A stretch of DNA of 64,000 nucleotides from Chloroflexota bacterium. Lineage in GTDB: Bacteria; Chloroflexota; Anaerolineae; Anaerolineales; UBA11579. The DNA is taken from positions 1-64,000 of the forward strand of contig VRUJ01000003.1 in the NCBI GenBank assembly GCA_019456165.1. The letters run 5' to 3'. A model generated the notes under the pieces. That model had not been told where the DNA came from and did not search any database. It saw only the letters and a list, made by a program, of their open reading frames with translations. Both the position numbers and the translations under genes were made by a program. Positions 35,796 to 41,348 of this stretch are shown here, in pieces; position 1 is the stretch's first letter, and the number at the start of each line of letters is the position of its first letter.

Positions 35796-37073
35796 CTATT
35801 TATAAATAAGGAATTGGAGTCTCAATTTACCCAATAGGATAATATCCCCGTGATTTAGTTTGTATGGGGTATTCACCCGTAGCTTTCTACCGGAATGCCA
35901 AGTTCCATTGGAAGATCCTAAATCTGATATTGATACATCTTCATCTCCAACCACAACTTTAGCGTGCAGCCGCGAGATTCCCCATTCATAACCTTTGAAA
36001 GGTGTTAAATCAATATCAGGTATTAATGGTTGGCCTTTGTATTTTCGACCGATTGTGTATTCTGCTTGAGTCTTTAGATTTAATATTTGCCCTGTATCAA
36101 TAAAATAAACTGACACCTGGGTGCGTTCATCGCTCGGTAGTCTCGTGGTTGCGCCAGTAGATTCCTGCTTGGTGCTTACATTGGCAATATCAATAAGGCT
36201 CGAATTTTGCAGTCTAGCAGTTTTTATCGTAGGCTGAAATTTTACCAAATCCTGGAGTAAGAGGTCTATGCTTTGATAACGTTCTTCTTTTGTTTTTGCC
36301 ATCGCTTTTTGAATTATCTGGGCGATTTGATCGGGGAGTTCTGGATATATTAATCTAGGCGACGGAAAAGGCTCGTTCACATGTTTCATCGCAATAGCCA
36401 ATTGATGCTCAGCATCATAGGGTAGTTGGCCAGTTACTAGCTCATAAAAAACCACCCCGAGAGAATATATATCCGAAGCGCCCTCCCCGGATTTGCCCAT
36501 AGCTTGTTCGGGGGAGATGTAAGCTGGCGTCCCTGTCAAAGTCCCAGGTACTGTTTGTTTTTTCCCTGATAGCAATCGTGCAAGGCCAAAATCCGCAAGA
36601 ACAACGCGCCCAGACCTTTCTATAAGTACATTACTCGGTTTAATATCTCTATGGGCAATATTTCGCCCGTGAGCATAAGATAGACCCACACCAATATTTT
36701 GGATCATCCGTATGGACGCTCCAAGGGGAACCCGGACTTGTCGCTTTCTAGCGTCCTCAATCAAATGTTTCAGGGTAGGTCCATTTATGTATTCCATTAC
36801 CATATACGGTCTCTTCCCATAGATATCAAAATCGTAGACTTGGACTATATTCGGGTGGCGTAAAGAAGCGAGGTTTCTAGCTTCGATTTTAAATCTCTCA
36901 ACAAAATCCTCTTCTCTCGTGAAGTGAGGGTGAAGTAATTTAATTGCTACATTACGGTCTAATACTGGATGATAAGCTTTGTATACTTGGGCAACTGCAC
37001 CGTAACCCAAGTATTCCAACACGTCATATTTCCCCAACGTTTTGCCTACTAGACCTTCTTGTCGTTCTGTCAT
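35796..37073 (-). CDS. Serine/threonine protein kinase with C-terminal FHA domain
   Basis: VAIKLLHPH, IAHRDIKPSNVLI, ADFGLARL; FHA: YTIGRKYKG..ISRLHAKVVV..SDLGSSNGTWHSGRKL. Confidence 0.95.
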   Translation of the reverse strand: MTERQEGLVGKTLGKYDVLEYLGYGAVAQVYKAYHPVLDRNVAIKLLHPHFTREEDFVERFKIEARNLASLRHPNIVQVYDFDIYGKRPYMVMEYINGPTLKHLIEDARKRQVRVPLGASIRMIQNIGVGLSYAHGRNIAHRDIKPSNVLIERSGRVVLADFGLARLLSGKKQTVPGTLTGTPAYISPEQAMGKSGEGASDIYSLGVVFYELVTGQLPYDAEHQLAIAMKHVNEPFPSPRLIYPELPDQIAQIIQKAMAKTKEERYQSIDLLLQDLVKFQPTIKTARLQNSSLIDIANVSTKQESTGATTRLPSDERTQVSVYFIDTGQILNLKTQAEYTIGRKYKGQPLIPDIDLTPFKGYEWGISRLHAKVVVGDEDVSISDLGSSNGTWHSGRKLRVNTPYKLNHGDIILLGKLRLQFLIYK

Positions 37074-37287: not shown

Positions 37288-38031
37288 TTATTTAAGAATC
37301 TGATTAAAAAAGGCTTTTGTTCTAGCCTCTTTGGGATTATTGAACATATCTTCCGGTGGCCCATCTTCGACGATCAACCCGGCATCCATAAAAACCATGC
37401 GGTCTGCTGCTGCTCGTGTAAACCCCATCTCGTGAGAAACAACGATCATGGTCATGCCCTCTTTTGCTAAATCTAACATCACGTCAAGTACTTCTTTGAT
37501 CATTTCGGCATCCAACGCGCTTGTTGGTTCATCGAACAACATGATTTTTGGGTTCATCGCTAGTGATCGTGCGATTGCCACCCTCTGCTGCTGTCCACCA
37601 GAAAGTTGAGTGGGGTATACAGCAGCTTTTTCCGGAATTCCAACCCTTTTTAATTGCTCCATCGCAATTTCTTCGGCTTCATTGGCAGTGCGGCCTCGTA
37701 CAATGCGTTGAGCAAGTGTGATATTTTCTAATGAAGTAAGGTGTGGGAATAAATTAAAAAGTTGAAATACCATACCAATTTCAGCGCGAACTTCGTTCAA
37801 TTGCTTTTGATCGCTAGTAAGAAGCTGGCCGTCTACCCAAATTTCTCCCTTAGTTGGCGTTTCCAGGTAATTTATACAACGAAGCAAGGTTGATTTACCC
37901 GAACCGCTGGGCCCAATGACGACAATAACTTTTCCTTTTTCAACAGTAAGGCTTACCCCATCTAATGCCTTTACCTTTTTGAAATGTTTATATAGGTCTT
38001 TTACTACAATAATATCTTTTGTATCAGTCAT
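37288..38031 (-). CDS. Polar amino-acid ABC transporter ATP-binding protein
   Basis: [47 protein letters not shown]. Confidence 0.95.
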
Positions 38032-39211
38032 CTTGGCGCATACGCCTTTCCAACAATCGAACCAACAAAGAGAGGGAAACGGTCATGGTCAAGTATAGAA
38101 TAGTTAGAACTGTAAAAGCTTCCTTATAACGAAATGAGGTGCCAGTATATTTTCGAGATAGCTGGGTTATATCTTGAACAGCCAAAACCGATACCAGAGA
38201 AGAATCTTTCACCATTGCAACAAAATCATTCCCCAGGGCTGGCAGCACATTTCTTACAGCTTGTGGGAGAATTACATAGCGCATTGCCTGACTGATGCTC
38301 ATTCCCAAAGATCTTGACGCCTCCATCTGCCCCCGCCCAATAGATTGGATGCCTGCCCGAAATATTTCTGCCAAAAATGCACCATATGTAACTGACAAAG
38401 CGATGATAGCCCTCCACTCGGAAGGAATATTTCTAATACTTAAATCAGCCAAAAATTGCCCTAATTGGGTCATTCCTTTTTCAATTAACTGTCCCCCCAA
38501 ACCATTAAGGCTTTCCACTAAAGCTGGTACGATCACCAAAGCGATAATAAAAATTAATACAAGTATTGGTATTCCTCGAATCAATTCAACATACAATGTA
38601 GATAAGTTGTTAAAGAATTTATTACTTGATATTCGTCCCAAACCAGCAAAAAGCCCAAAAACCAAGGCGATAAGGTAAGAAAAAATAGAAACCCGAACTG
38701 TGATCGTGAGGCCAACATAGATGAATTCAAACGATTCCCAATAACTCGCAGTATTGTTTAAGGTAAGTGAACGACCGATCAACTCCAGTTTTCCATTATG
38801 CTCACTTATAAATTTTTTAGATGCTTTTTCACTTATAACAATCGAGTCTACTTCGCCATCAAGCAGAGCTTGGATTGCTTCAGTGATTGTTTCAAAAGCC
38901 ACAATTTCCACCCCATCAAGAAACATTGATGCAATTTCATAACTTCTAGATCTGGCTAGGGTACCTAAAACCAAATCATCGTTTTCCATAAAATCCTCAA
39001 TTTTTGTGAAGCGGTCTTCTTCCATCCGAACTAGCAATCGGTCGATGCTAGCGTAGCTCCTATAAACAAGAATTCCCACAAATATTATCAATATAACGAT
39101 AGCGAATAACCACCACGGCAGCTGAGAGAGATTCCGCCTAGAAAACCAGCGTGTATCCTTTTGGGGGAAATCTTCTATTTCTAAAATCTCTGAGTCGTAA
39201 TCTTTCATCAA
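38024..39211 (-). CDS. Polar amino-acid ABC transporter permease with N-terminal TM anchor and isolated SBP lobe-2-like segment
   Basis: Permease: [21 protein letters not shown]..., [30 protein letters not shown]. Residues '[14 protein letters not shown]...[12 protein letters not shown]' align with the SBP at 39301..40929. Confidence 0.92.
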
Positions 39212-39300: not shown

Positions 39301-40929
39301 CTAGTCCTCAGTGTAAGCACCATCTCCAATATCGTCATACGAAACAGTGAAGCCCGGACCAAAGTATTCGGTATTCAAAGCATTCAAGAAACCATCCTCG
39401 ATCATAGCTATCAATGCTTGGTTGAAGGGTGCAACCAAGTCGCTGCCATTCGGGAACGCAAAACCTAATACGTCACTGGAAAGCGAACGCCCTACCAACT
39501 TCAACACATCGGCGTTCTCACCCAGATATCCCAGCCCGGCTACTTCGTCGATCATGACTGCATCAATATCTCCAGCAATCAAGGCTGAAATAGCAAACGG
39601 GAAAGTATCGAAGGTTGAAATTTCGTCTGGATCAATGAATTGGCTGGCCGTCTCATAGTTAGTTGTTCCAACTTGGGTACCTAATATAAGGTCAGGATCG
39701 TTTGCAATATCTTCAATTTCTTCGATGCGGTCTTCGTCAAGCCTAACCAAAAGTCGCTGGTCGATGCTCACATAACCCATCGAAAAGTCTACGATCTCAT
39801 CACGATCTTCTGTGATTGTGATGCCATCTGCAGCTACATCCCACTGTCCATCTGCTACACCCTGGATCATGCCTTCCCAGACTGCTTCAACGTAAACAGG
39901 CACACAATTCAATCGAGCGCATATTTCATCTATGGCATCATAATCCCAGCCTTTTGCAAGACCATCGGCGAGATCAACGTAGTTGAAGGGTAAGTAGGCG
40001 TTCTCTACGACTACTGTTACTTCGCGTCCGCCAAGATCCGGAAGAGCGCTTTCTTCTTCCTCTTCAGCATATGCACCATCTCCGATATCGTCATACGAAA
40101 CGGTAAAGCCCGGGCCGAAATATTCGGTATTCAAAGCATTCAAGAAACCATCCTCGATCATAGCTATCAATGCTTGGTTGAAGGGTGCAACCAAGTCGCT
40201 GCCATTCGGGAACGCAAAACCTAATACGTCACTGGAAAGCGAACGCCCTACCAACTTCAACACATCGGCGTTCTCACCCAGATATCCCAGCCCGGCTACT
40301 TCGTCGATCATGACTGCATCAATATCTCCAGCAATCAAGGCTGAAATAGCAAACGGGAAAGTGTCGAATGTTGAAATTTCATCTGGATCAATGAATCCGC
40401 TGGCTGTCTCATAGTTGGTTGTGCCAACTTGCGTTCCCAGGACTAGGTCTGGATCGCCGGCAATATCCTCGATCTCTTCAAAGCGGTCCTCGTCAAGCCT
40501 AACCAAAAGTCGCTGGTTGATGCTCACATAACCCATCGAAAAGTCTACGATCTCATCACGATCTTCTGTGATTGTGATGCCATCTGCAGCTACATCCCAC
40601 TGTCCATCTGCTACACCCTGGATCATGCCTTCCCAGACTGCTTCAACGTAAACAGGCACACAATTCAATCGAGCGCATATTTCATCTATGGCATCATAAT
40701 CCCAGCCTTTTGCAATACCATCGGCGAGATCAACGTAGTTGAAAGGTAAATAGGCGTTCTCAATGACAACCGTTACCTCGCGACCGCCAAGATCCGGAAG
40801 AGCGCTTTCTTCGGGGGCTTGGGTTTCCGGCGCCTGGGTTACTACTGGCGTATCATCGCCGTCACCACATGCTCCCAACAACAAAACAAGGATTAACATT
40901 GTAAAGAAAAGAATTTTATACTTTTTCAT
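39301..40929 (-). CDS. Amino-acid ABC transporter solute-binding lipoprotein with two tandem near-identical SBP_bac_3 domains
   Basis: Lipobox LLGACGD; the module ALPDLGGREVTVV.ENAYLPFNYVDLADG...DDIGDGAY occurs twice. Confidence 0.95.
   Translation of the reverse strand: MKKYKILFFTMLILVLLLGACGDGDDTPVVTQAPETQAPEESALPDLGGREVTVVIENAYLPFNYVDLADGIAKGWDYDAIDEICARLNCVPVYVEAVWEGMIQGVADGQWDVAADGITITEDRDEIVDFSMGYVSINQRLLVRLDEDRFEEIEDIAGDPDLVLGTQVGTTNYETASGFIDPDEISTFDTFPFAISALIAGDIDAVMIDEVAGLGYLGENADVLKLVGRSLSSDVLGFAFPNGSDLVAPFNQALIAMIEDGFLNALNTEYFGPGFTVSYDDIGDGAYAEEEEESALPDLGGREVTVVVENAYLPFNYVDLADGLAKGWDYDAIDEICARLNCVPVYVEAVWEGMIQGVADGQWDVAADGITITEDRDEIVDFSMGYVSIDQRLLVRLDEDRIEEIEDIANDPDLILGTQVGTTNYETASQFIDPDEISTFDTFPFAISALIAGDIDAVMIDEVAGLGYLGENADVLKLVGRSLSSDVLGFAFPNGSDLVAPFNQALIAMIEDGFLNALNTEYFGPGFTVSYDDIGDGAYTED
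39317..40828. repeat. Two tandem 756-bp direct repeats (252 codons each) within the SBP gene
   Basis: gcaccatctcc..atatcgtcatacgaaac at 39317 recurs at 40073; long identical tracts with a divergent patch. Confidence 0.9.
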
Positions 40930-41045: not shown

Positions 41046-41348
41046 TCAAGGAACTGGCTGAGGCCCAAGTAGGCTTCTGCATGAGCTTTTAGGACTACGA
41101 TGGCGGGTAAACAGCCGCAAGTCTCTAACCTCCTTAGGGGCTGCGTAAGCCGTTAGCAGATAGTTCAGCCGGGCCAAGTGTGCTAGCACACCAGCATCAA
41201 TCCGGTCAGTCTTGACAGCCGCAGATGCGATTGTCTTGACCTCTTTGGGATGTGCTAATTCCACTCGTGCCACGTGGTTAGTCAGCAGATCGTACATGAA
41301 TGGCCAGTTGCGGGTAGCTTCCAGAACCGCATAGGTCTCTCGTGGCAC
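41046..41348 (-). pseudogene. IS110-family transposase fragment
   Basis: ETYAVLEATRNWPFMYDLL...VELAHPKEVKTIASAAVKTDRIDAGVLAHLARLNYL matches the IS110 DEDD N-terminal region; truncated at both ends. Confidence 0.8.

Follow-up and report, generated by a model that had tools for sequence, protein, structure and literature searches.

The closest described systems to the permease reported here are the GlnP and GlnPQ transporters of Lactococcus lactis, in which sequence of a family-3 solute-binding protein (SBP) is joined covalently to an amino-acid permease on its outer face. The binding domains (SBDs) of GlnPQ are complete, bind ligand and act as the transporter's own receptors (PMC8025302). Another permease subunit with an extracytoplasmic domain is MalF, whose P2 domain (MalF residues 91-271) contacts the SBP MalE (PMC3150292). 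Domain 2 of TmArgBP (crystal structure 6gpm), a laboratory-made, soluble and thermophilic domain, is an example of lobe 2 of an amino-acid SBP on its own. It denatures at 102.6 C (PMC11328109), and of the isolated TmArgBP domains only D1 binds arginine (PMC7589609). Finally, PAAT permeases of Anaerolineales with an extra N-terminal transmembrane helix (TM) share an orthologous TM1 and core and the same SBP-permease operon with the present case, but carry no lobe.

Like GlnPQ, the permease examined in this paper bears family-3 SBP sequence; unlike GlnPQ, it bears a single lobe that lacks ligand residues, and a complete SBP is encoded separately next to it. It does not show the features that define the fusion class, though it may work alongside the SBP. 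The gene lies in the window, that is, the whole stretch of 64,000 nucleotides of a Chloroflexota contig (VRUJ01000003.1) that was analysed. Its operon includes the adjacent SBP_bac_3 (family-3 SBP) protein and a GlnQ-like ATPase. The features of the ATPase and permease genes are as follows.

37288..38031 (-), GlnQ-like ATPase, whose ORF shares 8 bases with the permease ORF
38024..39211 (-), amino-acid ABC permease of the PAAT type with inserted SBP lobe 2 (ORF and Pfam)
38027..38743 (-), BPD_transp_1 permease core, aa 157-395, starting with YWESFEF, at most 69% identical to lobe-less relatives
38765..39055 (-), inserted lobe 2, aa 53-149, equivalent to GlnBP residues 85-180 (BLASTP, fold and GlnBP alignment)
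38831..38833 (-), Ser127 where GlnBP has its ligand-contacting Asp, D157 (alignment)
38942..38959 (-), degenerate ligand loop, aa 85-90, LARSRS (QVGTTN in the SBP; alignment)
39059..39121 (-), TM1, aa 31-51 (21 residues), orthologous to the FPWWF... helix of relatives

Read from TTG, the permease ORF encodes 395 aa; the start is probably at 39208, since codon 2 after the TTG is ATG. Both Pfam matches of the permease exceed their cutoffs, namely BPD_transp_1 on aa 183-393 (102.7 bits against a gathering score of 26.4) and HEQRo_perm_3TM (55.2 bits against 42.2). TM1 is preceded by the positive residues of RWFSRR, which implies an N-terminus inside and therefore a lobe outside.

The insert, of about 97 residues, is placed between TM1 and the BPD_transp_1 core. 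In BLASTP, permease aa 52-150 matched the two SBD copies of the neighboring SBP with 46% and 47% identity, 67-68% positives, and E values of 6e-23 and 7e-23; the two copies stand at equal distance from the lobe. Alignment to E. coli GlnBP, whose sequence was checked at 16 positions, almost all of which are given in PMC7400645, sets permease Y53 on GlnBP Y85, the start of the hinge, and L149 on GlnBP L180, the end of the small domain. In GlnBP, the small domain comprises residues 90-180 and the hinge residues 85-89 and 181-185 (PMC7400645). Since the borders match these residues and domain limits, the insert is, as judged by alignment, lobe 2 preceded by the first strand of the hinge; the permease contains no sequence from lobe 1. 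SBP_bac_3 has no Pfam match on the permease or on the lobe alone, so that no two-lobed domain above the gathering score is seen in the inserted segment, and no Pfam model recognises the isolated lobe. It is detectable solely by comparison with the neighboring SBP, where its homology is to lobe 2, or by its fold. The first-pass annotation had read a permease with an isolated lobe 2 after one TM helix, lacking lobe 1 and about 45% identical to the middle segment of the SBP, and each of these points agrees with the coordinates, borders and identities given here.

The partner SBP and its two lobes 2 are located as follows.

39301..40929 (-), partner SBP, a lipoprotein with an LLGAC lipobox and a tandem pair of near-identical SBP_bac_3 domains
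39475..39777 (-), second SBD, lobe 2, sharing 46% identity with the permease lobe
40231..40533 (-), first SBD, lobe 2, sharing 47% identity with the permease lobe

Over 300 nt, the two SBD copies are 97% identical to each other. The genome contains only three copies of lobe 2, the two in this SBP and the one in the permease, and another donor within the genome was rejected because only these three are present. The neighboring SBP gene is therefore most simply the donor, by its position and as the only donor in the genome. Of the two placements tried, the codon likelihood prefers the one in which the lobe is sister to its own SBP. In the protein tree, the lobe does not group with that SBP, the AU test separates no placement, and the lobe branch reaches 2.5 substitutions per site. 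Identity was 67% against a mean of 78% for lobe 2 of the partner SBP, 68% against 73% for its lobe 1, and 65% against 70% for the permease core; co-adaptation drawn from the faster evolution of this lobe 2 was set aside as suggestive and too weak to use. Tandem-type SBP ORFs also occur in relatives, with two lobe-2 matches in L045, L061, and L063 and a tandem length in L043. Their presence in several relatives points to recurrent duplication or to concerted evolution. A fragment of an IS110-family transposase (PF01548, 7e-9; 41046-41348, minus strand) lies immediately upstream of the SBP gene. The SBP-permease locus is prone to rearrangement, because of the tandem SBDs here and in relatives and the transposase fragment.

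The ligand contacts of GlnBP are K115, G119, S120, L155, and D157 (PMC7400645), and the corresponding permease residues are L85, R89, S90, V125, and S127. From the SBP to the permease lobe, GTTNYE has become RSRSYE and DAVMIDE has become DSIVISE, the two losses of ligand motif that had been noticed at first reading, and the former ligand loop holds two new arginines. None of the seven ligand-facing columns, which were selected with the sequence already in view on the basis of the motifs and the GlnBP mapping, is kept, compared to 36 of the 58 other conserved columns (Fisher P 0.002). Among the always-hydrophobic columns, 30 of 33 are still hydrophobic in the lobe. Since lobe 1 is missing and every ligand contact has changed, the permease lobe alone would be unable to bind an amino acid.

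Modelled alone by AF2, the lobe gave alternating strands and helices (pLDDT 83.4, pTM 0.77), with an alignment of 36 SBP lobes whose rows bias the model toward the SBP fold. In the full-length permease modelled without SBP rows, the lobe had low confidence, with a pLDDT of about 40-60; a mixed alignment (A1), in which SBP lobes were set onto the permease core, was excluded from modelling. The alpha/beta lobe anticipated by the first-pass annotation was thus obtained with SBP homologues in the alignment, and without them the lobe was of low confidence. The best 50 PDB matches listed by Foldseek were all amino-acid SBPs or SBP-like domains. Among known structures, isolated domain 2 of TmArgBP has the same fold as the lobe model (TMt 0.81, rmsd 1.8 A); that domain was made in the laboratory, whereas the lobe here is natural and joined to a permease. 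The alpha/beta fold of the insert is likely because of its 46% identity homology to SBP lobe 2. By analogy, the permease lobe should fold but not bind, since isolated D2 of TmArgBP folds and D1 alone binds.

No other lobe-bearing permease was found among 61 relatives, among the matches listed for 400 genomes of the order (166 with an orthologue at E 1e-60 or better), in 24 genomes of the family, in 396 genomes of the class, or in 80 further loci, and a query spanning TM1, lobe, and junction gave no second case in 400 genomes of the phylum. In the order sample, the best matches per genome were scored and the matches listed reach E of about 1e-65, where a lobe-bearing orthologue should rank high. 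The genome samples overlap and amount to 1,304 genome searches in all. Partial SBDs on permeases were also not found in the literature, as covered by open-licence papers searched with narrow phrases. The half-lobe architecture is as unusual in these samples as had been supposed from the single sequence. For the listed orthologues, matches start near query residue 143-180, i.e. at the permease core, and TM1 is joined directly to the core with no SBD between. Relatives read ...FPWWF-TM1-(N)YxEAFxFI..., whereas here LPWWL-TM1-YRS is followed by the lobe and a further 15 residues. A full SBD within the permease, which would have made the lobe a strain-specific deletion according to the annotation, was seen in none of the 166 orthologue-bearing genomes of the order, nor in the family or class sample. 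These comparisons support lobe 2 as a lineage-specific insertion, seen in a single species among the genomes searched; it appears to have been inserted and not left after loss of lobe 1, because orthologues join TM1 to the core and none carries an SBD.

One match from residue 10 in another Anaerolineales genome (L036:239-1381, also G146 contig C14 and L121) was rejected as a second case, since its insert of about 70 aa at the same TM1 exit is unrelated to the lobe. This insert has no Pfam match and is absent in the other 20 genomes of its family. Because of it, the TM1 exit looks like a permissive slot. In L032, a relative from the family, the permease ORF is longer N-terminally (362 aa), with apparent extra hydrophobic helices before TM1.

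The open frame of the lobe is no evidence of function, because any stop codon there would also abolish the downstream permease, and conservation across species is not demonstrable as the lobe is known from one species only. In a branch codon model with the lobe as sister to its own SBP, the topology with an lnL 6 better than the alternative tested, omega was 0.53 and indistinguishable from 1 (lnL difference 0.1). Under the alternative topology, omega was 0.10 and a value of 1 was weakly rejected (twice lnL difference 5.1). Neutral simulations were identity-matched and started from reconstructed ancestors; a neutral test begun from the present-day SBP was rejected as biased, because changes in the SBP itself could account for differences. 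Positives numbered 77 against 67.1 (sd 3.3) in the simulations (P 0.002), and 68 against 61.3 when the permease was left out of the reconstruction (P 0.04). For core hydrophobicity, P was 0.07, and 0.02 with the permease left out; for ligand-column loss, the values were 0.004 and 0.01, respectively. The joint P of a kept core and a lost site was 6e-4, and below 1 in 1,988 with the permease left out. As to the purifying selection for which a test had been proposed, the branch omega of the better-scoring topology does not reject neutrality and the simulations favor a kept fold. Taken together, this is moderate evidence, from one sequence, that the fold is under relaxed but real constraint and the binding function has been lost.

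The explanation proposed here, to which we give about an even chance, is that an inserted copy of lobe 2 of a family-3 SBP forms a folded accessory domain outside the membrane, which faces the SBP and does not itself bind ligand. Lobe 2, most simply that of the neighboring gene, would have been copied in frame at the TM1 exit; it would form an alpha/beta domain at the outer face of the membrane, as homology and the model suggest, and alone would bind no amino acid. No second permease gene was seen beside the lobe-bearing permease, and since none adjoins, the permease is probably a homodimer, each transporter having two lobes at its mouth. The lobes would most likely touch or tether the tandem-SBD lipoprotein and so dock or stabilise it, in a role like that of MalF P2. 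P2 occupies a different place in its chain and its function was shown by experiment, whereas the role here is suggested by analogy. To our knowledge, P2 is not derived from an SBP. The docking platform or gate named in the first-pass annotation is compatible with the evidence.

The main rival, a substantial possibility although short of even chances, is that a chance insertion of lobe 2 at a permissive surface site left transport undisturbed and has been drifting since as a tolerated passenger, its reading frame surviving only because a stop or frameshift would abolish the permease downstream. Occurrence in one species, the very long lobe branch, an omega not distinguishable from 1 under the better of the two codon topologies, and a site that takes foreign sequence, as with the unrelated insert of about 70 aa, are all in accord with such drift. 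On the other hand, conservative replacements and core hydrophobicity exceed the identity-matched neutral simulations while the ligand columns are all lost (joint P at most 6e-4), and the borders of the insert are exact lobe borders. Both of these points speak for the accessory domain. If the lobe instead closed onto a docked SBP's lobe 1 or onto released substrate, forming a composite site or exit gate, its fold would be right and its predicted position outside the membrane near the pore suitable; the change of all seven ligand columns, including the Asp and the G-T-T loop, and the two arginines in that loop make this improbable.

Descent from a GlnP-like fusion, with a complete SBD once on the permease and both halves of lobe 1 lost, was also suggested by the annotation and draws on the order of TM, SBD sequence, and permease core, which resembles GlnP, and on the fact that SBD-permease fusions are well known (PMC8025302). 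It is very unlikely. It would take two distinct deletions, the SBP is encoded by a gene of its own, and the direct TM1-core junction and missing SBD of the orthologues contradict it; the permease itself has no complete SBD, only the equivalent of GlnBP 85-180, and keeps 0/7 ligand residues. An assembly artefact joining SBP and permease sequence is less probable still and can nearly be dismissed: the genome is in 63 contigs and an internally repeated SBP gene invites misassembly, but the frame is open across both junctions, and the insert is no misplaced SBP copy because DNA identity between the two is only about 55%.

The architecture is real, an unusual variant of the SBD-permease fusion for which a function is plausible. 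Known fusions of this kind carry whole binding domains. A natural, isolated, and degenerate lobe 2 on a permease would indicate that a two-lobed receptor can supply one of its halves as a structural domain, and would suggest how permeases gain periplasmic domains that contact the SBP. More tentatively, and with some doubt, one lobe of the transporter's own receptor may have become a permanent, non-binding component of the membrane subunit that aids SBP docking or the triggering of release, as an evolutionary intermediate on the way from soluble SBPs to periplasmic domains built into the permease. Downstream of the transporter operon, a serine/threonine protein kinase with a C-terminal FHA domain is encoded at 35796-37073 on the minus strand.
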